Shown here: in pieces, positions 557 to 41,479 of the stretch
Numbering within the stretch: position 1 is the first letter of the stretch
Layout: the number at the start of each line of letters is the position of its first letter
Virus record (IMG/VR): IMGVR_UViG_3300040806_002135
Location: 1 to 56,526 of that record
Length of the DNA: 56,526 nt
Reading direction: 5' to 3' (one strand)
From: a virus
The notes under the pieces: generated by a model
What the model was told of the DNA's origin: nothing
The model's database searches: none
What the model saw: the letters and a program-made list of their open reading frames with translations, nothing else
Translations under genes and position numbers: made by a program

Positions 557-659
557 CTTATACTTGTTCCATCGTCAGACACGGCAACGCAATCGCAAGC
601 CAGTCAGACGCAAATCAAATCCTATCAACATTATTTCTATAAAGTGTTAGGCGTTTGAT

Positions 660-689
660 TTGACATTTATTAGACGATTAGAGTATAAT
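660..689 (+). promoter_or_regulatory. Consensus sigma70 promoter of the accessory operon
   Basis: TTGACA (660-665) and TATAAT (684-689) are both perfect matches to the housekeeping sigma factor consensus, with an 18-bp spacer. Transcription would start near 696 and run right into the structured leader and the small genes. The spacer contains TAGACGAT, a sequence also found in the switch region (9166-9173), so the repressor may act here. The promoter call is strong; its regulation is inferred. Confidence 0.75.
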
Positions 690-708
690 AGTACTCAACA
701 ATTCAGAC

Positions 709-753
709 AAGGCAAGACACCCGAAAGTGCGAAAGCGCCTGAACCCTTGCCTT
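709..753 (+). promoter_or_regulatory. 5' leader stem-loop with GNRA-type inner hairpin
   Basis: AAGGCAAG (709-716) pairs perfectly with CTTGCCTT (746-753). Inside, GTGC-GAAA-GCGC forms a short hairpin capped by a GAAA tetraloop. The element begins about 13 nt after the predicted transcription start, so it would form the 5' end of the operon RNA. A role in RNA stability or processing is possible; no T-run follows, so it is not a classical terminator. Confidence 0.5.
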
Positions 754-926
754 GTGTTCGCAGTATCTTCGAAAATTTAAAGACGTGAGCGCCTAACCAC
801 GGTAGTCCATAAGATTCACGCTGAAACTAGGCGGACTAGCCAACGCAGTCCGTTCAAAAAGATTCACCAGAAAACAGTACGTCCAACGTTGGGCGAAAGT
901 GTGGTGGATCAATGCCTCCTCCAGAA

Positions 927-991
927 CCATGCCCATTTGGGCATGGCTTAGAGTCCATCAAGGTGGACTGTAGGCCATGACTAAACATGGC
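927..991 (+). promoter_or_regulatory. Three consecutive hairpins ahead of first CTGGAGGC start
   Basis: Three perfect inverted repeats follow one another: CCATGCCC-ATTT-GGGCATGG (927-946), AGTCCA-TCAAGG-TGGACT (952-969) and GCCATG-ACTAAA-CATGGC (974-991). They are followed by an A-rich unpaired stretch and then CTGGAGGCAATATG. This matches the spacer design seen before the other small genes up to 3528. None has a T-run. Confidence 0.55.
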
Positions 992-1017
992 ATTCAATCA
1001 ACTAATCTGGAGGCAAT

Positions 1018-1137
1018 ATGCGAAAGCAATTAGTGGTCAGTCAGTTCCCTCAGTACCAACGCCCTCGGCGTTGGAGGATGAACCCACTAGAACGCCTAGA
1101 AATGGGCGTTCGTTACTACAAAAAACCAAAGATGTAA
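1018..1137 (+). CDS. Possible 39-residue basic peptide
   Basis: An ATG directly after TCTGGAGGCAAT opens a frame for MRKQLVVSQF...VRYYKKPKM, 39 residues and strongly basic. The same DNA contains two perfect inverted repeats, CCAACGCC-CTC-GGCGTTGG (1056-1074) and GAACGCC...GGCGTTC (1090-1111), as well as an internal GGAGGATG start signal. This stretch may therefore be a decayed copy of the structured spacer rather than a true gene. The strong start signal favours translation; the peptide resembles nothing I recognise. Confidence 0.4.
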   Translation: MRKQLVVSQFPQYQRPRRWRMNPLERLEMGVRYYKKPKM

Positions 1138-1215
1138 ACCTAGCATAAGACTGCTATCGGCAGTCTGTTAGTAGGTTTATGACCTGCTGTTTCAACAACT
1201 AATCTGGAGGCGACA
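1137..1215 (+). promoter_or_regulatory. Structured start cassette A
   Basis: Hairpin 1 is AGACTGC-TATCG-GCAGTCT (1148-1166). Hairpin 2 is GTAGGT-TTATG-ACCTGC (1171-1187, one T-G pair). AACCTA (1137-1142) can instead pair with TAGGTT (1172-1177), enclosing hairpin 1 and excluding hairpin 2, so two folds compete. CAACAACTAATCTGGAGGC then leads to the ATG at 1216. Confidence 0.55.
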
Positions 1216-1527
1216 ATGTACCAAAGAGTAGAAGAATACGAATTCGTGCAAGCATTCAAAGACTTCAACCGTACCGATCAATTCACCAGAGATGGGCTGA
1301 ATGTTCTATTTGAACACCTAGTGTCTTTAGAAGAAGACACCGGCGAAGAGATTGAACTAGACGTGGTTGCTTTGTGTTGTGAGTTCTACGAGTACTCACT
1401 GAAAGAGTACAACAACGAACATTCCCAACAATGGGAAACCATTGAAGAACTCGCAGAACACCTAGCAGACTACACAACCGTTGCCGGAACAACTGGACGA
1501 GACACCATAATCTTCCAAGCATACTGA
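1216..1527 (+). CDS. Small acidic phage protein, DUF7222-like
   Basis: This is a 103-residue, very acidic protein. The central GLNVLFEHLVSLEEDTGEEI and LDVVALCCEFYEYSL resemble a widespread phage family annotated as DUF7222, whose members have the form 'L..LF.yL..lEed.Gee.eLDVIALCC.y.EY'. Function is unknown for that family; its acidity and accessory position are typical of host-takeover or anti-restriction proteins, but that is inference. The start is well set by CTGGAGGCGACAATG. It stands alone between structured cassettes A and B. Confidence 0.7.
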   Translation: MYQRVEEYEFVQAFKDFNRTDQFTRDGLNVLFEHLVSLEEDTGEEIELDVVALCCEFYEYSLKEYNNEHSQQWETIEELAEHLADYTTVAGTTGRDTIIFQAY

Positions 1528-1641
1528 AAACTAGTTCAGAACAGTCATCGTTGACTGTTCGCAAGTAGGTTTCAACTACCTGCTACCTCACGGACAACTA
1601 CACCCAGTAGTGTCCTAAAAATAATAATTTCTGGAGGCAAT
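1528..1641 (+). promoter_or_regulatory. Structured start cassette B
   Basis: Hairpin 1 is GAACAGTCA-TCGT-TGACTGTTC (1539-1560, 9 bp, perfect). Hairpin 2 is GTAGGT-TTCAACT-ACCTGC (1565-1583), with the same stem as hairpin 2 of cassette A. A third hairpin, GGACAACTAC/GTAGTGTCC (1592-1615), has one bulged A. TTTCTGGAGGCAATATG then starts the next gene. Confidence 0.55.
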
Positions 1642-2391
1642 ATGGCACTGTTAACAATCGGCGGAAACCCAAAACTCGCTAAGTCTGACACGTCCAACCA
1701 AGGCTTCATCACAGCAGGACTGAACTTGGCTGCTGCCAACACGTCCGGCTACGAAGTATGCCCAAGACGTTCAACAGGCTGCACAGCAGAGTGCTTGCTG
1801 TACCAAGGACGTGGACGCATGGCTTCCGTGATGGCAGCACGACTGACAAAGACTAAGTTCTTCTTTGAGCATCGTGCTGACTTCTTGGAACAACTGCATG
1901 GCGAGATCGACAAGTTCCAACGTTCGGCAACTCGCAAAGGACTGACTGCCGTCGTGCGGCTCAACGTGATGTCTGACATCAACTGGGAGCGCATCGATCC
2001 ATCGTTGTTCACTACCTTCCCCAACGTGCAGTTCTATGACTACACCAAACGGGAAGACCGAATGAACCGATTCCTTGACGGCAACTTTCCCAGCAACTAC
2101 TCGCTCTGCTTCTCACGCAGCGAGGACAACGAGGACTACTGTCGCACGGTTCTCCAACGTGGTGGAACCATCAACGTGGTCTTCCGTGACTGGTTTCCAC
2201 TCAGCTACCTTGGCTTCCCAGTGACGGACGGAGACAAGGACGATCTCACGTTCTTGACACCATCACACACAGTCCGTGCTGTGATCGCCAAGGGTAGTGC
2301 AAAGCACGACAAGTCTGGCTTCGTTGTCGATGCGACTGACAAGCACATGCAGTCATCTTGGCAAAGACAAAAAGCGGAGGCAATCGCATAA
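1642..2391 (+). CDS. GP88-family phage protein
   Basis: The 249-residue product resembles the 'gene product 88' (GP88) family found in many actinobacterial and other phages. Three cysteines form C-x6-C-x3-C (C40, C47, C51: CPRRSTGCTAEC) near the N-terminus, after a GGNPKLAKS opening and GLNLAAANTSG. Further conserved-looking segments are VRLNVMSDINWE and NVQFYDYTKR. The family's biochemical role is not established; the Cys triad suggests metal or iron-sulfur binding, but the spacing is not that of radical-SAM enzymes. The ATG follows CTGGAGGCAAT, so the start is secure. The gene is monocistronic within the cassette series. Confidence 0.65.
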   Translation: MALLTIGGNPKLAKSDTSNQGFITAGLNLAAANTSGYEVCPRRSTGCTAECLLYQGRGRMASVMAARLTKTKFFFEHRADFLEQLHGEIDKFQRSATRKGLTAVVRLNVMSDINWERIDPSLFTTFPNVQFYDYTKREDRMNRFLDGNFPSNYSLCFSRSEDNEDYCRTVLQRGGTINVVFRDWFPLSYLGFPVTDGDKDDLTFLTPSHTVRAVIAKGSAKHDKSGFVVDATDKHMQSSWQRQKAEAIA

Positions 2392-2475
2392 CTGAGATCC
2401 ATGCCTAGACACTCAACGAGTGTCTAGACCTGACATCACGGTGATGCAGGGACTAACAACAATATCTGGAGGCAT
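2392..2475 (+). promoter_or_regulatory. Structured start cassette C
   Basis: Hairpin 1 is CTAGACACTC-AAC-GAGTGTCTAG (2405-2427, 10 bp, perfect). Hairpin 2 is CCTG-A-CATCA-CGG-TGATG-CAGG (2429-2450), again beginning CCTG. ACTAACAACAATATCTGGAGGC follows, then the ATG at 2476. Confidence 0.55.
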
Positions 2476-2619
2476 ATGGAACAAGAAACAAAGATCGTAA
2501 CGCTTACCATCAAACTAGAAGTTGATGAAAACGTAGACGTTGAAGAGATGGTAAATGAGATGGACTACTCATTCGACTACGACGGAATTCTTGGATCAAC
2601 AATCACGGAGTATGTATGA
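2476..2619 (+). CDS. Small acidic protein, 47 residues
   Basis: The frame opens after CTGGAGGCATATG and encodes MEQETKIVTLTIKLEVDE...TITEYV. It has an alternating beta-like start and an acidic middle (DVEEMVNEMDYSF). Similar short acidic proteins with a 'V.v.v.vd..vdveevv.em.y.f' pattern are common in phage accessory regions, but I cannot name a function. It overlaps the next start as ATGTATGA, so the two are probably co-translated. Confidence 0.6.
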   Translation: MEQETKIVTLTIKLEVDENVDVEEMVNEMDYSFDYDGILGSTITEYV

Positions 2620-2732
2620 AACAGAAACTACTAGCCCGTAAACGATGGATCAAGGCGAGAGAAAAGGCTATTGATCGTATCCTTGCGAGGATACCAAAAG
2701 AAGAACAACCAACGGAGGAATCAACCAACTAA
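2616..2732 (+). CDS. Small basic protein, 38 residues
   Basis: This frame overlaps the previous stop by 4 nt and encodes MKQKLLARKRWIKAREKAID...EESTN. The first 26 residues are a strongly basic amphipathic helix and the tail is acidic. The basic helix next to an acidic partner suggests the two could interact, but no function is known. It has no ribosome site of its own beyond translational coupling. Confidence 0.5.
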   Translation: MKQKLLARKRWIKAREKAIDRILARIPKEEQPTEESTN

Positions 2733-2813
2733 AACCCAGATTGTTACGCTCTTCCCTAGAGCGTAGCGACCTGCGTTTTAAGCAGGGTTTAACAACCAAC
2801 TACTGGAGGCAGT
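2733..2813 (+). promoter_or_regulatory. Structured start cassette D
   Basis: Hairpin 1 is TACGCTC-TTCCCTA-GAGCGTA (2745-2765). Hairpin 2 is CCTGC-GTTTTAA-GCAGG (2770-2786). AAAC at the 5' end and GTTT (2787-2790) can close both into a three-way junction. AACCAACTACTGGAGGCAGTATG starts the next gene. Confidence 0.55.
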
Positions 2814-3176
2814 ATGATTCATTGGAACATGACAACTAACACCTACTCAACAATCCACATCAACGATGTAGATGTTCGTACACTACGTCACATTGGCTAC
2901 AAGTTTTTTTGTGTAAAGATTGACTGGAATTACGAAGGTCAACTTGACGAAGATGACATTGAAAACCAACACGACACCAGCATCCAAGAAACAGTGTATG
3001 TCATTGCTGCAAATGAATGGCTTGCTGGACGTACCGCCTTCCTCCACTTGGACGATACCTACTCTCCAGCGGGAGATGCTTGGGCGGACGTAAGTGACGC
3101 AACAACCGCAACGGAAATCGAACCACTGGGCTTGAAACCGACTTACTACACCATCTCCATAAACCTAGAACCCTAA
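2814..3176 (+). CDS. Hypothetical accessory protein, 120 residues
   Basis: This acidic protein (MIHWNMTTNTYSTIHINDVD...) appears to be mixed alpha/beta, with a YKFFCVKIDWNYEGQ segment and a C-terminal YYTISINLEP strand. I recognise no family. The start is supported by CTGGAGGCAGTATG; an internal ATG a few codons on (MTTNTYS) is possible but lacks a ribosome site. It is a single gene between cassettes D and E. Confidence 0.6.
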   Translation: MIHWNMTTNTYSTIHINDVDVRTLRHIGYKFFCVKIDWNYEGQLDEDDIENQHDTSIQETVYVIAANEWLAGRTAFLHLDDTYSPAGDAWADVSDATTATEIEPLGLKPTYYTISINLEP

Positions 3177-3267
3177 GAACCCAGACCGTCACCCTTCACG
3201 GAGGGTGATTGCCTGCGTTCTTCCAACGTAGGGTAACTAACAACGCCAACAAGGAGGTGACAACGCT
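3177..3267 (+). promoter_or_regulatory. Structured start cassette E
   Basis: Hairpin 1 is TCACCCT-TCACGG-AGGGTGA (3189-3208). Hairpin 2 is CCTGCGTT-CTTCC-AACGTAGG (3212-3232, one G-T pair). The 5' part, AACCCAGACCGT, parallels AACCCAGATTGT of cassette D. An A-rich stretch and AAGGAGGTGA follow. Confidence 0.55.
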
Positions 3268-3453
3268 ATGACCCACAAACAATTCTTTTGGCTAGATCGT
3301 CCTCAGAACGATGATGACATCTGGAACCTAGCCTTGGAAGTTCTTTGTGCAGAGGAATACGACTCGCCTGACGAAATCTCCGACGAAGTGCTTGGAGACA
3401 AACTCAACGAGTTACGAAAGGAATACAACATCGAACGCCCAAAGCTAACCTAA
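3268..3453 (+). CDS. Small acidic protein, 61 residues
   Basis: The protein (MTHKQFFWLDRPQNDDDIWN...) is acidic and probably helical, with EYDSPDEISDEVLGDKLNELR in its second half. I recognise no family. The start has the strong ribosome site AAGGAGGTGA, which differs from the CTGGAGGC used by its neighbours and lies farther from the ATG. It lies alone between cassettes E and F. Confidence 0.55.
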   Translation: MTHKQFFWLDRPQNDDDIWNLALEVLCAEEYDSPDEISDEVLGDKLNELRKEYNIERPKLT

Positions 3454-3528
3454 CCAACCCCCTACCTCCAGGTCGAGTGGCAACACTCGGCCTAGAACAA
3501 CCGAAAAACATTATTTTCTGGAGAATTT
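3454..3528 (+). promoter_or_regulatory. Structured start cassette F
   Basis: A single long hairpin, GGTCGAGTG-GCAA-CACTCGGCC (3471-3492, one T-G pair), carries a GNRA tetraloop. ATTATTTTCTGGAGAATTTATG then starts the methyltransferase-like gene. It is the last and simplest cassette in the series. Confidence 0.5.
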
Positions 3529-4203
3529 ATGAACATCAAAGACCTCAAGGTACTTGTGGCCTGTGAGTCCAGCGGCACAGTCCGTGACGCCTTCAACCGA
3601 CTGGGCTGCAACGCTTGGTCCTGTGATATTTTACCGGCGAACGGACAGCTTATTCAGACCGATGTCCGTGAAGTACTGTTTCCTGACACATGGGATCTGA
3701 TGATCGCACACCCCCCATGTACCTACCTGACTGCCAGCGGGATGCACTGGACGACAAGGGGACTGCGTGACCCCAAGCTGACTGAGGATGCCCTCGACTT
3801 CGTGCGATTGCTGATGGACGCACCGATACGCCACATCGCAATCGAAAACCCAGTGGGGCGGATCGGTACGGCTATTCGCAAGGCCGACCAGTACGTCCAT
3901 CCCTACCTCTTTGGCCACGATACCAGCAAATGCACCGGCCTCTGGCTCAGTAACCTCCCCAAACTTCAACCTACAGAGTTTGTTCCAGCGGCACGACACG
4001 CTTGCTGTGGCAAGTGGCAGGACGAGGGACAGTGCAGCGAGTGCGGCAAGAAAACCAAGCCACGCTGGGCGAACCAAGCCCCATCGGGTGCTGACAGCAC
4101 ACCCCCATCGAAAGATCGCTGGCAGAAGCGGTCTGTTACGGCAACCGGCATCGCCGATGCGATGGCCCAACAATGGACTCAACACATACTGGAGACAGCA
4201 TGA
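3529..4203 (+). CDS. Compact DNA cytosine methyltransferase-like protein
   Basis: The 224-residue protein has the core motifs of C5-cytosine methyltransferases in their short phage form. VLVACESSGTVRDAF (about residues 9-23) is in the place of motif I. HPPCTYLT (about 62-69) carries the Pro-Cys of motif IV, and IENPVG (about 106-111) matches motif VI ENP. A Cys-rich zinc-like knot, HACCGKWQDEGQCSECGKK, follows near 159-177. It is far shorter than classical enzymes and shows no target-recognition domain, so it may modify phage DNA non-specifically or have lost activity. It starts after CTGGAGAATTT and its stop overlaps the next ATG. Confidence 0.65.
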   Translation: MNIKDLKVLVACESSGTVRDAFNRLGCNAWSCDILPANGQLIQTDVREVLFPDTWDLMIAHPPCTYLTASGMHWTTRGLRDPKLTEDALDFVRLLMDAPIRHIAIENPVGRIGTAIRKADQYVHPYLFGHDTSKCTGLWLSNLPKLQPTEFVPAARHACCGKWQDEGQCSECGKKTKPRWANQAPSGADSTPPSKDRWQKRSVTATGIADAMAQQWTQHILETA

Positions 4204-6770: not shown

Positions 6771-6986
6771 CCCGCTAGGCCGCAGGAATACTGGTCTTCT
6801 TATTCTTTATATATTATATGTATACATATATATATATATATATATATTATTATTATTATTATTATTATTATAAACGCATACGCGAGGAGCCGTTGGAAAA
6901 TAATCCAACACCACCCCCTCCAACCTACCTACCGCACATGCTTTCTATTTATGTATACATTTCCCGCTAGGCCAGACGGATACTGG
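6771..6986. repeat. Near-direct 24-bp repeats flanking a microsatellite
   Basis: CCCGCTAGGCC..A.G.ATACTGG occurs at 6771-6794 and 6963-6986, with 192 bp between copies. Their position just after the serine recombinase makes them candidate recombination or binding sites. The AT-rich microsatellite lies between them. Confidence 0.55.
6826..6871. repeat. Microsatellite: (AT)11 then (ATT)8
   Basis: An alternating AT run (6826-6847) passes directly into an ATT triplet run (6846-6869). Such long simple repeats are rare in phage genomes. They should melt easily and be prone to slippage. Confidence 0.85.
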
Positions 6987-6995
6987 GCTAGCGGG
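6963..6995 (+). promoter_or_regulatory. Long hairpin CCCGCTAG-G-CCAG
   Basis: CCCGCTAG (6963-6970) and CCAG (6972-6975) pair with CTGG (6983-6986) and CTAGCGGG (6988-6995) across one G-G mismatch, with a 7-nt loop. It includes the second copy of the direct repeat. No T-run follows, so a recombinase or protein site is as likely as an RNA role. Confidence 0.5.
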
Positions 6996-7028
6996 GAGTA
7001 CATTTAATGGTATATGGTAATTACATGT

Positions 7029-8943: not shown

Positions 8944-9208
8944 AATGGCTCAAAAAGAATAGTGTTTTTCCAAAATTGGGCACAACGTTTACTAGCAATG
9001 ATTTGTCTGAAGTACTTCATTTTAACCTTTAAAATGAGTGCTTTAACAAAATTAAACGCATTGTCTAATTTTGTTGTTGCAAAAAAGAACAATGAGTCTA
9101 GAATTGTCTAGACAAAGCTAGTCAACAATATTGACTAACCGTCTAATAAGGTACTAACTCTTTGCTAGACGATCAAGGTATTTCTGAAAAATTTTTGTAA
9201 CATTTTGC
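8944..9208. promoter_or_regulatory. Lysis-lysogeny switch region with clustered operators
   Basis: This is the gap between the leftward repressor and the rightward replication operon. It contains the palindromes TTGTCTAGACAA (9104-9115) and TAGTCAA-CAATA-TTGACTA (9119-9137). Further GTCTA/TAGAC half-sites lie near 9063, 9097, 9141 and 9166. TTGACT at 9131 may be a rightward -35. The exact promoters could not be fixed. Similar half-sites occur at the 660 promoter and near 18820 and 18973. Confidence 0.6.
9010..9043. repeat. Long inverted repeat ahead of repressor gene
   Basis: AAGTACT (9010-9016) and CATTTTAA (9018-9025) pair with TTAAAATG (9029-9036) and AGTGCTT (9037-9043), leaving a CCT loop, one bulged T and one T-G pair. 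It lies in the probable 5' leader of the repressor mRNA and has no T-run. It may be an RNA hairpin or a protein site. Confidence 0.5.
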
Positions 9209-36580: not shown

Positions 36581-36984
36581 CAGATCTGCCTATCCGTATT
36601 TACACCGATTAAGCATTCCTTAGTCATCTTTTCGGCAGCTTGTAGCTTTTGGGGTTCAGACATTTCCAAAACCTGCTCGTACCGATAGTGCTTGCGGAAT
36701 TCATCGATGACGCAAGAACAGTTTTGAATGGAGAACTGAAGTGCCAACGGTTTTGGCATTCCTTGGTATTCAAACTGTGGCTGCATCTGCAGCGAACATT
36801 GATACGTCCACTGCAGTAGAAATAGGGTAGGGTAGTTGATCTCATACAGTTGTTGCTCAACTTCGTTGACCAACGGCCCTTTACTCTTGTCGAGATGCTG
36901 TGGCAGATTGCCGTGATGCGAGAACGCTGGCGGCGGCAACCCGCAGGTTGACAACAGGGCCAGTAGCAGCAGTGATTTCTTCAT
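36580..36984 (-). CDS. Exported protein in lysis cluster, 134 residues
   Basis: MKKSLLLLALLSTCGLPPPAF... has a classic Sec signal peptide: positive start, hydrophobic stretch, then SHHGNLP after a probable cut near residue 22. LLSTCG also resembles a lipobox, so a lipoprotein is possible. The mature part has five Cys, including QNCSCV, and Leu-rich helices. Its place in the lysis cluster fits an o-spanin-like or periplasmic lysis factor, but no known spanin motif is seen. It is coupled by TAATG to the upstream gene. Confidence 0.55.
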   Translation of the reverse strand: MKKSLLLLALLSTCGLPPPAFSHHGNLPQHLDKSKGPLVNEVEQQLYEINYPTLFLLQWTYQCSLQMQPQFEYQGMPKPLALQFSIQNCSCVIDEFRKHYRYEQVLEMSEPQKLQAAEKMTKECLIGVNTDRQI

Positions 36985-37283
36985 TAGTACTTTCCTTTTC
37001 TACCTTTCGGATTAGACGTAGTATGTCCTCCCTTGCCACCCCATAGGTCTTTGCAAGCCCAGTGTTTTGCAGTGCCTTTAGTTGCTGAAGCGCACTTGTG
37101 TCGTGCCTTAAAAGATTTTCTAGCTGCGGCAGAGTAATTGTTTCCATAGCCCTTTGCTCCATACTGAATGATCTTTTCTTTTCCACCGCTGCAGTCCTTG
37201 ACCACCCTCTTCTTTTTGCTTCCTGCTGGCGCTGGTCTGGGCTTGTTGCAGGGCATAGCCTTCTTATTGACTCTTGCTGGCAT
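36984..37283 (-). CDS. Basic Cys-containing protein, 99 residues
   Basis: The central KEKIIQYGAKGYGNNYSAAARKSFKARHKCASA followed by HWACKDLW is a signature of a small basic family seen in many cyanophages and pelagiphages (written here: YGAKGYGNNYS, then SFKARHKC, then HWACKDLW). Its function is unknown. It is very Lys/Gly-rich and may bind nucleic acid or act in lysis. It overlaps the exported-protein gene through TAATG. Confidence 0.6.
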   Translation of the reverse strand: MPARVNKKAMPCNKPRPAPAGSKKKRVVKDCSGGKEKIIQYGAKGYGNNYSAAARKSFKARHKCASATKGTAKHWACKDLWGGKGGHTTSNPKGRKGKY

Positions 37284-37284
37284 C

Positions 37285-37578
37285 TTATTCTTTCTCCCGC
37301 AGTACGGCCTTCAGCAGTGTAGTTTGTTCGACTAGGCAGCTTCGCAGATCCCCCAGTATTTTGTTAGACTCAGAAATGATTCCTCTGAGTGCCTCATCGC
37401 TGGTCGTATCCTTTTTCATCCATTCGAGCCTTTCTTCTTTGTGCATCATGTCTGCTGTTGTTCGCTCCTCACGATGAGATTTTGTGATAAATTGGATATA
37501 CCAGAAACAAGCGATCAAGGAGCCAAGCCCTGCGCCTAAGTCGCTAACCAGCTGAATGATTGAAGATGATTCGGGCAT
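37285..37578 (-). CDS. Probable holin, BhlA-like, 97 residues
   Basis: The N-terminus MPESSSIIQLVSDLGAGLG... continues into one transmembrane helix (SLIACFWYIQFI, about 20-32). It is followed by a charged amphipathic domain (KSHREERTTADMM...) and a C-terminal coiled coil (LVEQTTLLKAVLREKE). This topology is like BhlA/UviB-type holins. It is the first gene of the lysis cluster, one base from its neighbour. Confidence 0.6.
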   Translation of the reverse strand: MPESSSIIQLVSDLGAGLGSLIACFWYIQFITKSHREERTTADMMHKEERLEWMKKDTTSDEALRGIISESNKILGDLRSCLVEQTTLLKAVLREKE

Positions 37579-37599
37579 AGCAGGTACTCGGCTAAAGGG

Positions 37600-38151
37600 T
37601 TATAGGGAATCAGGCCACGCATGAATCGGTGCTTTGCCCGTTGGATTTCCCTCTTCGTCCGTTGGGGTGGTGTGGAGTGCGATGAACTCTTCTAGTGTCG
37701 TGCAGCCATTGATGGCGGATTCGATTGAATTGGATGCGGCCCGTACAGAAGCCCTATAATCTAGTACTGCTTGCGGCACTGCGGTGCTGGTTTCGGCCTT
37801 CCGTACAACATACCAATCGGTGTCTTTAAGTAGGCTTCCTGCGGTTTGTTTTGTGCGGCTAATCCACTGGCTTTTGAGCCCCTGCTGAACCTGCTGGTTG
37901 CCGCCCATGTCTAATACTGGATTGCCGTCTGCGTCCGTTACGTTTATATCATCTAGGCTTTTAGGGTTATTAGCTGACCAATAAAACCGTTCATCATACG
38001 GATCTGGTGGCGCAGGAGGTTCTACCCAAACCATTCCAAGTGACGTTTTGAATTCTGGTGTCCACCGATTCCAGACTGACGGATGTGTAATGCCATTGGA
38101 ATCTGTCCAAGATCGTCCAACACGAATCGTAGTGCCGTTGTAAGTCCACAT
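37600..38151 (-). CDS. Tail-fibre assembly-like protein, 183 residues
   Basis: The N-terminal 60 residues (MWTYNGTTIRVGRSWTDSNG...) look beta-rich. The second half is helical with LLKDTDWYVVRKAETSTAVPQAVLDYRASVR, the 'L..tDw.v.r......vP......y...lR' pattern of DUF4376-like and tail-fibre-assembly proteins. It may chaperone or cap the adjacent fibres. It follows the 638-residue fibre gene. Confidence 0.55.
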   Translation of the reverse strand: MWTYNGTTIRVGRSWTDSNGITHPSVWNRWTPEFKTSLGMVWVEPPAPPDPYDERFYWSANNPKSLDDINVTDADGNPVLDMGGNQQVQQGLKSQWISRTKQTAGSLLKDTDWYVVRKAETSTAVPQAVLDYRASVRAASNSIESAINGCTTLEEFIALHTTPTDEEGNPTGKAPIHAWPDSL

Positions 38152-38173
38152 AGTTAGTTATCCTTTTATCCTG

Positions 38174-40060
38174 TTAACGTGCGTTGCTAAATTTAAATGG
38201 TTGTTCTGCGAAGGCCATAAAGATGTAAGTTTCGCCATCATCGTTAATTTCTTCTTTAGTGGATCTAACTTTAAAACCATTACTTAAAAAATCTATGTAT
38301 ATGTCCGTTGCGGCAGTAGACCCGTTTCCACGATAGCCTTCTTGGATACTTTTATTAGCGTACAAAACTTTATTCATGACGTTACTGGAATCCCTAGCAT
38401 TGTCGTACATAGCCCAACTAGTATGAGTCGTGGTGGTGTCGGATGTGCATTTGCAAATTACAAGGGCAGGGCGGAAGCCACAGTACACAAACGGCAAAGC
38501 AGTAGACCCTTCGTAGCTGCCGAACTTACTGTAGCCTTCTACCGAATGCCAGCAGTAGGCTATAAAATTATGAGTATCATTAATATTAGTTGTATTAATA
38601 TTCCCCAGTAAAGGGACTATATTTCCATCAGTAAGTGGGTTTTTAATACCCCCACCTCCGGAAGTCGAAACATTCGTCTGAGCATTAGGTAATTGCAAAT
38701 ATAAATTATGATTCGTTGATAGGCTTTTGTGGTAAACGAACCAATATTCAGGATCATCTAAATCCTTAATTATTACAAAATCTAAACTACTTAGACCGGA
38801 CGGAATAGACTGATTCGAATTGGTGGCGTTATTACCGTAGTATTTTACAATACTAAACCCTGCATCGGTATTTATTGACATCCGCTTTGGGTATATTGTT
38901 GGCGATCCAGCAGGGGTATAATTGCTTTGTAGTACCCCATTAATTGATACACTACTATTAGAACTAGTAGCAGCAGACCCATTAGCGTTCATTGCGCCAG
39001 AAGTAGCCGTATTATCTGCTGTGGGTACCCCACCTGCTTTCCAGCACCAAGCTACAAACTTAGCATTGTTGTCATTTAAAGCGTTAGTTCCTGTGATTGA
39101 TTGAATTGTAAAGCCAGATGATGTTAAATCGGCATCAGCATTACCAGAATATGTACCTTCAGCATTAGTCTGGGAGGATGAAATCCATTTTAAATTCCCA
39201 TCCCCACGAACAGAATCCATTAACAAGTGATCTGAATTTACATTGGATGTTGGTAATAGTGTTCTTGCTTTAGTCCAAATTAAGTCTGGAGCAAAGTCTG
39301 TTGAAATTGATCTAGGGTAAATATTATCCCCCGTCCAAATCACAGCTTTAAAGTAATCCGCTGGCACATCACCAGTAACGGTTGGGGTAAAGTCTGGCAG
39401 GTTGGCAGTACAAAGTGCTAGTGCGCCAGTTGGTGGTTGGAAAGCAAAGCGTCCACCTGTTGAATTACCTGAGGCATCTGTATCATAATCGCCAGCACCA
39501 GTAGGAAGGTTTGATGCTCCACCGAAAGTAGGGTCTTGACCGAAATTAACTCTAATTTTCTGACTGCCAGAATTTGAAGCATTCCAGCATCTTAAACTAA
39601 GATTTGAAGTAAGGTTATTATGAATATATCCTGTTCCGTTCGAAATGTTTGCAGACAACTGCAATGCGCCATTTTTTGCTAGATACCACTTGCTATTCTG
39701 AATATCTACAATCACGCCTAATACATCTTCTGTTGTAAAGCTAATCGAAACTGCTGTTTGAGGAGCGTTATTCCAAGGTTCACCATCACCTCTAATTCCC
39801 CAAGAATTACTAGTATTGGTACCTTCCAGTAACCCAATATTCAATAAACTTAAGTAACTTGTTTCATAATAAATTTCAAAATAAGTAATCGCATTCGGTA
39901 ACATCTGCATTGATGAAGACACTGAGCCAGCAGAAGCTAAAAATGTTCCGGTAGTTAAATTCCCATCAGATAGCGAAATTGATGAGTTATATAACGGATT
40001 CAACGCAGCAAAATTATTCGTTGGACTGTCTGGGACAATATCGTGTGTGCTAAATGCCAT
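38174..40060 (-). CDS. DUF7483-like/SPRY-type fibre protein, about 628 residues
   Basis: Two copies of a lectin-like module are visible: an SPRY-like first half (YFEIYYETSYLSLLNIGLLEG...), then the DUF7483 type (YFKAVIWTGDNIYPRSIST, FAPDLIWTKARTLLP, FTIQSITGTNALNDNN, FVAWCWKAGG) and a second partial copy (LDFVIIKDLDDPEYWFVYH, FIAYCWHSVEGYS). Such modules occur on tail fibres of aquatic phages and probably bind host surface sugars. The ATG at 40060 (MAFSTHDIVPDS) is chosen over a TTG at 40084 that would overlap the upstream stop. Confidence 0.65.
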   Translation of the reverse strand: MAFSTHDIVPDSPTNNFAALNPLYNSSISLSDGNLTTGTFLASAGSVSSSMQMLPNAITYFEIYYETSYLSLLNIGLLEGTNTSNSWGIRGDGEPWNNAPQTAVSISFTTEDVLGVIVDIQNSKWYLAKNGALQLSANISNGTGYIHNNLTSNLSLRCWNASNSGSQKIRVNFGQDPTFGGASNLPTGAGDYDTDASGNSTGGRFAFQPPTGALALCTANLPDFTPTVTGDVPADYFKAVIWTGDNIYPRSISTDFAPDLIWTKARTLLPTSNVNSDHLLMDSVRGDGNLKWISSSQTNAEGTYSGNADADLTSSGFTIQSITGTNALNDNNAKFVAWCWKAGGVPTADNTATSGAMNANGSAATSSNSSVSINGVLQSNYTPAGSPTIYPKRMSINTDAGFSIVKYYGNNATNSNQSIPSGLSSLDFVIIKDLDDPEYWFVYHKSLSTNHNLYLQLPNAQTNVSTSGGGGIKNPLTDGNIVPLLGNINTTNINDTHNFIAYCWHSVEGYSKFGSYEGSTALPFVYCGFRPALVICKCTSDTTTTHTSWAMYDNARDSSNVMNKVLYANKSIQEGYRGNGSTAATDIYIDFLSNGFKVRSTKEEINDDGETYIFMAFAEQPFKFSNAR

Positions 40061-40068
40061 AATCTTTA

Positions 40069-40806
40069 TTAGGTTACTGTCCAATCGTTATTATTACCGG
40101 AAACGTCATTACCAATGTTAGATGAATCCGCAAAGTCTAAATGAAATCCGTTGTCTCCGTAACTTCCTGTGTATGCTTTAGGAACCCAAATATCTTGTTT
40201 AGTTTCGCCAAAATATGATGCGTCGAGTGCTTGCCCGTCTATAAATTGTATGTTTGCTAGGTATCCACTAAATGGTTCAGTAGCATCAGATCCTCTACCT
40301 AAAGTAACAGGTCTTGAAGCTTTGTTAATGAATGGTTGTGTAAATGTAGTAACTGTTGGAGCAACACTATTTGGCCCAATAATTTCAACTCCATTTGCGT
40401 ATACAATCAATTTATTAGTCGCTCCAGTATCCATCATAATTACAAAATGATACCATGCACTTGGATCTCTGAATGCAGCAGAAGAGGTTGCCTCAATTTG
40501 CCACGCAGAATCAACATCGTTTCTAACACCAAAAAAGAATTGGTCAGAGGTCACACTAGTAAATATTATGCATCTGCCGCCACTGCCACTCCCACCGGCA
40601 TATGTATCAAAGAAACTATTCCTTAACCCAAGCCTACTACCAATCTTATACCATAAACTGATAGTTACTTTTGATTCATCAGTAACAGAAGATAAATTTG
40701 TTCTACTCAAATAACTAGACCCATCAAACCGTAATGACTGCTCAATCGGGTAGTCGTAGAAGCTAGCTGATCCGCCACTTTTTGCTGTGCCTTGTATAAT
40801 GCTCAT
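40069..40806 (-). CDS. LamG/concanavalin-type lectin protein, 245 residues
   Basis: After a short N-terminal region, residues 25-215 form a LamG-type beta sandwich: LRFDGSSYLSRTNLSS, KVTISLWYKIGSR, WYHFVIMMDTGATNKLIVYANG and YLANIQFIDGQALDAS. This layout is used by virion lectins to bind glycans. It precedes the DUF7483-like gene and probably forms part of the same fibre. Confidence 0.7.
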   Translation of the reverse strand: MSIIQGTAKSGGSASFYDYPIEQSLRFDGSSYLSRTNLSSVTDESKVTISLWYKIGSRLGLRNSFFDTYAGGSGSGGRCIIFTSVTSDQFFFGVRNDVDSAWQIEATSSAAFRDPSAWYHFVIMMDTGATNKLIVYANGVEIIGPNSVAPTVTTFTQPFINKASRPVTLGRGSDATEPFSGYLANIQFIDGQALDASYFGETKQDIWVPKAYTGSYGDNGFHLDFADSSNIGNDVSGNNNDWTVT

Positions 40807-40825
40807 GGGCTTTTACCTGACTCCG

Positions 40826-41479
40826 TTAGCTAAGTGCGGCAGTTACTGATACCAGCACTACAGAAGCACTTGGCGCAAAGTATGACAACCAGTATTCGCC
40901 TGTTGCTGACAACGTAGTTAAATCCGCCGTTCCTAGCTTTACGGATGCCGCTTTACTGGCAGTATAAGCTGACGCATTGTTAACGTAGATGTTTCCAGAC
41001 TGTCCTGCCGTAATATTCGTAAAGGTAATCGTATAATTGGCAGTTGGCGTACAAGAAAAGTTATTAGTGGTGTTCATGTCAAAACTGGCAGTATTGGCTA
41101 CTGTGACTGTGCCACGATTGCCGCCAGTAAATGTCTGGTCTGCCGTCAGATCCGCAAAGTTGGATAAGCCCAGCGTGGTTCGTTGGGCCGTTGTATCCGC
41201 ATCATCTAATAGCGCCCGTCCTGCACTCGTCAGATCCGCCACGGCATAAGTATCGGACGCAGTGGTGTACAACATTTTGTCAGTGTCAGTGGTTAGGCCA
41301 CTGATCGAAGTCAGCCCAGCATCTAACGGTTGCTTACTACCTAAGTCCGTAGTCAAGTTACTGATCTTTGCTTGGGCAATCGCAGCATCTGCGGCAATAT
41401 CCGTGTTCGTGATGGTCCCGTCGGCAATGTCCTCAGACGTGAGTGGGACAGGGGTTGGTTGTTTTCCGATATAGGCCAT
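40826..41479 (-). CDS. Tail fibre protein, 217 residues
   Basis: MAYIGKQPTPVPLTSEDIADGT... is the typical opening of a small fibre family of aquatic phages (MAYIG..P). Thr/Ala-rich repeats follow (ITNTDIAADAAIAQAKI, DTTAQRTTLGLSNFADL), then a C-terminal beta region with FTNITAGQSGNIYVNN. Its stop is shared in part with the next gene's start. It probably extends a fibre tip or shaft. Confidence 0.6.
   Translation of the reverse strand: MAYIGKQPTPVPLTSEDIADGTITNTDIAADAAIAQAKISNLTTDLGSKQPLDAGLTSISGLTTDTDKMLYTTASDTYAVADLTSAGRALLDDADTTAQRTTLGLSNFADLTADQTFTGGNRGTVTVANTASFDMNTTNNFSCTPTANYTITFTNITAGQSGNIYVNNASAYTASKAASVKLGTADLTTLSATGEYWLSYFAPSASVVLVSVTAALS

Follow-up and report, generated by a model that had tools for sequence, protein, structure and literature searches.

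The early operon of an uncultured phage, represented by a 56,526-nucleotide virus record (IMG/VR IMGVR_UViG_3300040806_002135, positions 1–56,526, the whole of this 56.5-kb stretch being referred to here as the window) carries hairpins of two helical turns in four of its six intergenic spacers, each rooted at the stop codon of the preceding gene. The spacers, lettered B to G, separate small genes that are transcribed behind a leader of approximately 330 nucleotides, and a related contig, L002, shows the same arrangement around different genes. With slightly better than even confidence, we read the spacers as intercistronic RNA processing signals of the T7 type, carried on one polycistronic early mRNA. 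A previous sequence-only reading had described a series of RNA-structured start cassettes in this region; the observation is largely real and partly confirmed, and its interpretation is partly supported. Anchoring at stop codons and a two-state fold are additions to it.

The four hairpins, 45–51 nt in total length, share one architecture: mismatches or an internal loop separate a lower stem of 6–9 bp from an upper stem of 8–13 bp, which is capped by a loop of 3–6 nt. All features are on the plus strand unless stated. The hairpin of cassette B (1134–1180; 18 bp, folding z-score −5.9) is anchored at the TAA at 1135, that of C (1525–1574; 18 bp, z −6.0) at the TGA at 1525, and that of E (2730–2780; 21 bp, z −8.2 to −9.0) at the TAA at 2730, while that of F (3175–3222; 19 bp, z −4.6 to −4.7) begins one nucleotide into the TAA at 3174. 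Four spacers of L002 (R1, R2, RE and RF) have the same stop-anchored form, R1 (4589) being unrelated in sequence to every spacer of the window, and the 45–51 nt hairpins come in seven distinct sequences. The sequence-only reading had assigned one design to all spacers, with a perfect hairpin of 7–10 bp in each. Such hairpins are present, but in B, C, E and F they are merely the upper half of the longer structure, D and G are simpler, and the junction of the 47- and 38-amino-acid genes at 2616 has neither spacer nor hairpin.

Stop-anchored hairpins with z ≤ −4 occur at four of the six spacer-bearing stop codons. Of 3314 positions sampled, 17 have one, the cassettes themselves accounting for some of these, so that the random rate is about 0.4–0.5%. 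Folding z-scores of the spacers range from −2.4 to −5.3 in the window and from −2.0 to −6.0 in L002. Ranking by raw minimum energy was uninformative because GC-rich coding windows dominate it, and was dropped for shuffle-controlled scans. Across the whole 56.5 kb, four of the seven plus-strand single-hairpin windows with z ≤ −6.4 lie at 937, 1134, 1525 and 2730.

The start sites are repetitive as well. The Shine-Dalgarno (SD) sequence CTGGAGGC precedes five genes of the window (at 1007, 1204, 1631, 2466 and 2803; with the ATG of the 103-amino-acid gene it spans 1204–1218) and occurs nine times in the window against an expected 2.5. The CTGGAGG(C) start sequence previously described for every cassette is present at five genes, with AAGGAGG replacing it in F and CTGGAG in G.

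Each of the eight two-turn cassettes of the window and L002 offers an alternative to the lower stem, in which its 3' arm pairs with sequence further downstream. The alternative pairings are GTAGGT/ACCTGC in B, C and R2, TGGTG/CACCA in R1, and CCTGC/GCAGG, or CCTGCGTT with AACGTAGG/AACGTGGG, in E, RE, F and RF; the energy difference between the folds ranges from −2.1 to +1.7 kcal/mol. In B, GTAGGT (1171–1176) pairs with ACCTGC (1182–1187), which excludes the lower stem of the stop-anchored hairpin; in C, 1565–1570 pairs with 1578–1583; in E, CCTGC pairs with GCAGG (2770–2786) within 0.1 kcal/mol of the full stop-anchored fold; and in F, CCTGCGTT pairs with AACGTAGG (3212–3232). When the 5' arm was held open, as by a terminating ribosome, the downstream flank stabilised the RNA beyond shuffled flanks (B, C, E, F and R1; Fisher combined p 7e-5, a value that is somewhat optimistic because B/C and E/F share lower-stem sequence). 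No two-state fold was seen in eight control sites from T7 and Pseudoalteromonas phage Slicky01 (p 0.05–0.98).

True covariation is seen in the leader, which was aligned over 194 columns between the window, L002 and a further relative, L122. Over five helices, 31 pairs are conserved in all three sequences, nine of them having changed on both sides, against a mean of 3.0 in shuffles; none of 500 shuffles reached nine, and slid structures gave 0–1. Helix H1 (784–789 with 815–820) has four of six pairs doubly compensated, whereas H2 (790–795 with 828–833) and H3 (832–837 with 847–852) are invariant; H4 (861–869 with 902–910) carries two double changes and H5 (880–885 with 890–895) three. H1 and H2 interleave, and hence would form either a pseudoknot or mutually alternative helices. 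Of the 33 stems of 5 bp or more that the window leader could form, H1, H5 and H4 rank highest by number of compensated changes. Covariation of these three helices is thus strong, on three sequences rather than family-wide. Closer to the first gene (39 amino acids, 1018–1137, conserved in L002), an anti-SD sequence, GCCTCCTCCAG (914–924), is identical in the three leaders and is predicted to pair with the CTGGAGGC of that gene (1007–1014), the ensemble expecting 7.2 pairs in the window and 7.0 in L002. Between the two lies a two-turn leader hairpin (936–985; −28.6 kcal/mol, z −6.8) with C-G/U-G variation in L002.

The 5' portion of the leader forms a hairpin, ACAAGGCAAG/CTTGCCTTGT (707–755), which is replaced by a different module in L002 and L122. 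The leader DNA matched no named phage, and no Rfam covariance model scored above its gathering cut-off, the best permissive matches lying far below. A coding leader was considered, as L002 has a long open frame there, and was rejected since the window and L122 contain indels that shift that frame.

These results support the RNA role that had been proposed for the region: the leader covaries, the stems contain G-U wobbles, the structure far exceeds that of shuffles, and a related phage uses the same design with different genes. The sequence-only reading had named the joint absence of covariation and of similar spacers in relatives as telling against itself; the leader covaries and L002 has similar spacers. 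Its suggestion that the cassette stems covary fared less well, as the cassettes it had compared are paralogous spacers and their differences are not formal covariation; covariation proper is seen in the leader and at one pair in the upper stem of D.

Comparison with L002 reveals mosaicism. Segments of similarity (1129–1189, 1564–2481, 2615–2719, 2728–3256, 3453–3498 and 4199 onward) have, for the most part, their left edge inside a spacer or at or near a stop codon and their right edge at a start codon or inside a spacer. In place of the window genes at 1216, 2476 and 3268, L002 has unrelated ones; it also lacks the methyltransferase-like gene found further downstream, and its cassette R2 consists of the B hairpin joined to the 3' part of C. 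To judge from these alignments, the matching spacers that flank unrelated genes are joints of gene exchange.

The setting is an operon with a single consensus promoter. The operon begins within 560–3530, divergently from the terminase small subunit gene, with the order promoter, leader and genes of 39, 103, 249 (GP88), 47, 38, 120 and 61 amino acids. The sigma-70-type promoter (TTGACA-18-TATAAT, 660–689) matches the consensus at 12 of 12 positions and is present in L002 too; the sole other plus-strand match (10 of 12) overlaps a start codon (2789). One polycistronic early mRNA, made from the promoter at 660–689, is the best explanation of this arrangement.

Bacteriophage T7 offers the closest parallel. 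Its sites R0.3, R0.5, R1.1 and R1.3 are likewise irregular two-turn hairpins of about 50 nt, located in the leader and spacers of an early polycistronic mRNA, at or just after stop codons, and composed of a lower stem, a mismatch or loop and an upper stem. The T7 intercistronic sites folded into the same architecture, the site after gene 0.4 being anchored at the gene 0.4 stop codon. The R1.1 stem measures 49 nt, and for RNase III a 12-bp stem can be enough for cleavage, with no strong consensus (PMC8708148); in T7, five sites of the early mRNA are cleaved while it is being transcribed (PMC4858673). The leader hairpin and cassettes B, C, E and F of the window, together with R1, R2, RE and RF of L002, have the irregular form of about 45–60 nt and two helical turns, and the window hairpins occupy the leader and intercistronic positions of a polycistronic early mRNA. 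They differ from the T7 sites in having no common sequence or ACUC/UAUGAU loop, in their freely variable upper stems, and in the alternative fold, which was absent from the T7 sites examined.

Slicky01, a distant relative whose portal is 28% identical to that of the window, resembles both. On its minus strand (36776–41137), most early spacers contain a T7-signature hairpin (ACTC...TTTATGATT) that begins at a stop codon or close to one. It shares with the window a comparable genome position, an early operon transcribed away from the terminase genes, hairpins in most early spacers and a repeated start sequence, AATTAATTATG; it differs in retaining the T7 sequence signature and in lacking the two-state fold. 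Some annotated starts in Slicky01 fall within the hairpin (TTTATG).

If the spacers are processing signals, the stop-anchored hairpins between genes would be cut by the RNase III of the host, or by an equivalent nuclease specific for double strands, leaving one mRNA per gene whose 3' end is structured and whose A-rich leader, bearing the SD, is free. Because the two-turn leader hairpin is located between anti-SD and SD, a cut within 936–985 would part 914–924 from 1007–1014, free the SD and turn on the first gene. RNase III cleavage can turn on phage genes in this manner, as with T7 gene 1.2 and lambda N. A ribosome at the stop codon would mask the 5' arm and favour the alternative fold, so that whether the RNA is processed may depend on translation of the upstream gene. 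The conserved spacers double as joints for the exchange of accessory genes. In its fullest form, which we put forward only tentatively and consider rather doubtful, the cassette would be a ribosome-gated processing switch: with the stop codon in the base of the hairpin, the terminating ribosome would force a fold that is not a substrate, cutting would be coupled to the translation of each gene, and the module would travel with exchanged accessory genes behind a new covarying leader RNA family.

Several observations weigh against processing of the T7 type. The T7 internal-loop signature ACUC/UAUGAU was found nowhere in the early region of the window by a search that recovers it in the early spacers of T7 and Slicky01; since the window hairpins lack it, their likeness to T7 sites is functional and not one of sequence membership. 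No such hairpin array was found on scanning the early regions of HMO-2011 and CRP-212. The hairpins of D and G are simple and fall outside the two-turn form. Covariation within the cassettes is thin, the sole clean compensated pair between orthologues being one in the upper stem of D, where T-A in the window is C-G in L002; L002 is the only relative with the whole region, L122 adding the leader only. Finally, the five cassettes of the Fisher test are partly paralogous.

The alternative fold could also serve a switch that involves no cleavage, in which the lower stem, opened by the terminating ribosome, gives way to the second pairing, with a change in mRNA stability or in initiation at the next SD. 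The start of the lower stem at the stop codon, the near-isoenergetic second fold in all eight cassettes and its absence from control RNase III sites agree with this. We nevertheless think it unlikely, as there is no clear tendency of either fold to cover or expose the SD (its mean probability of being unpaired is 0.17–0.80, with no pattern) and the match in length to RNase III sites would have to be coincidence. The mosaicism raises a different idea, that the spacers are primarily short homologies for gene swapping, like the promoter early stem-loops (PeSLs) of T4, with structure secondary. Similarity between the window and L002 does break at or near stops, spacers and starts with unrelated genes in between, and among the gene products of the phage are a Sak4-like annealing protein and an exonuclease; but different cassettes share no upper-stem sequence, which is poor for homologous pairing between them, they have no promoters of their own, and leader covariation and G-U pairs require an RNA role. 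This primary function therefore appears distinctly improbable to us.

Position directly after the sole promoter of a long operon would suit a covarying leader of some 230 nt, and perhaps cassettes, that act on RNA polymerase as put-like processive antitermination RNAs. With no similarity to an Rfam family and no downstream terminators found that would need readthrough, we give this little credence. Least credible of all are weak transcription terminators or stabilisers of mRNA 3' ends. A hairpin right behind a stop codon is typical terminator placement, and E, flagged as terminator-like, has GCGTTTT after its stem. That cassette alone is borderline and qualifies the previous statement that T-runs are lacking; the remaining stems have no T-run after them as an intrinsic terminator would, terminator-like matches number 4 against 3.2 in shuffles, and all genes are served by a single promoter.

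Two further systems were compared with the cassettes. The extended start-associated sequences (ESAS) of Cluster K mycobacteriophages, to which the sequence-only reading had likened them, combine a 13-bp start-associated sequence (SAS), GGGATAGGAGCCC, with 17-bp inverted repeats of shared consensus (PMC3203893). A repeated start-site sequence, an upstream inverted repeat and restriction to a subset of non-structural genes are common to both, so that a loose analogy stands. The window differs in that the 13-bp element does not precede its start codons, where the repeat is CTGGAGGC, in that the stems of B, C, E and F differ in sequence and show no genome-wide consensus of 17-bp imperfect inverted repeats, and in its anchoring on the upstream stop codon; a T7-type RNase III site fits better. 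The T4 PeSLs, too, are stem-loops that separate small early genes and are associated with gene shuffling, as is seen in the mosaicism of the window and L002. They join a promoter with a terminator stem-loop, whereas the window has one promoter for the whole operon. Identity with PeSLs was rejected, as the consensus promoter and the 10/12 match over one start codon do not provide a promoter per cassette. Integron attC-like sites, suggested by hairpin ends of the form AAC...GTT, were rejected by inference, no search for an integron integrase having been made, because of the G-U wobbles in the stems and a covarying G-U to A-U change in the leader.

The remaining spacer structures are smaller. Cassette C has a third hairpin, GGAC-ACTAC/GTAGTGTCC (1592–1615), of which L002 keeps the stem and varies the loop. 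Cassette D contains a 10-bp hairpin (2405–2427) set off from the stop codon, which has the T-A to C-G change in L002, and a second one, CCTGaCATCA/TGATGCAGG (2429–2450). The simple hairpin of G (3470–3493) has 10 bp, and 13 bp in L002; CTCC directly upstream of it can pair with CTGGAG at 3518.

The window encodes a terminase small subunit, portal, major capsid protein, integrase, exonuclease, Sak4-like annealing protein and primase. The nearest named relatives of its portal (25–30% identity) are podoviruses of the HMO-2011 type, SAR11 and roseobacter phages and Slicky01. The GP88-family gene (1642–2391) matches Pfam PF17338 (E 3.7e-45), and the DNA methyltransferase-like gene, of a phage type, follows the 61-amino-acid gene. 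A search for tRNA and tmRNA genes found none, and no prophage relatives were found in genome contigs searched by portal and capsid. Positions 560–660, which separate the promoter from the terminase small subunit gene, are well conserved in L002, L122 and L098, with GTCAGAC... and an inverted repeat, CAAATCAAA/TTTGATTTG, a possible operator. In contig L091, positions 118–379 align with 5–256 of the window; the portal gene is 99% identical, but identity is down to 79% close to the terminase small subunit gene, which suggests recombination at the border of the early region. Elsewhere, a hairpin with z about −9 (6949–7004), between a resolvase-like gene and the integrase, is a candidate terminator or attachment site, and another (9002–9050, z −6.5) lies in the gap upstream of the exonuclease gene.

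A single scan for repeated start sequences recovers Anaya (SAS), Slicky01, the pair L057/L062 and L022–L024. L057 (5720–7850) and L062 (5730–7850) are GP88-bearing contigs with a repeated ACAACAGGAGC start cassette that, like those of the window, combines a hairpin with a start sequence; in L057, two hairpins begin at TGA and have a constant lower and a variable upper stem. Their sequences are unrelated to those of the window, and no alternative fold was apparent on inspection. A GCACTG...CAGTGC hairpin block occurs at differing places, and gene ends share GTACCCACGAAAAACCAGTA (VPTKNQ). In L022, L023 and L024 an SAS-like repeated start sequence, CTACAAAAGGA, precedes several genes, and two spacers have strong hairpins. 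L015 holds 13 ATG-associated copies of TGAATACGATG, mostly 49–63 nt apart, as a tandem repeat or array.

The leader RNA is a candidate for a new family of structured RNA, and if the two-state fold is real, RNA processing would be tied to translation termination. From L057 and the other lineages with repeated starts, the design seems to occur again in lineages that are unrelated and differ in sequence, which suggests that stop-codon hairpins and repeated starts arose several times over, in phage lineages unrelated to one another, as a means of inserting small accessory genes into early operons and expressing them there.

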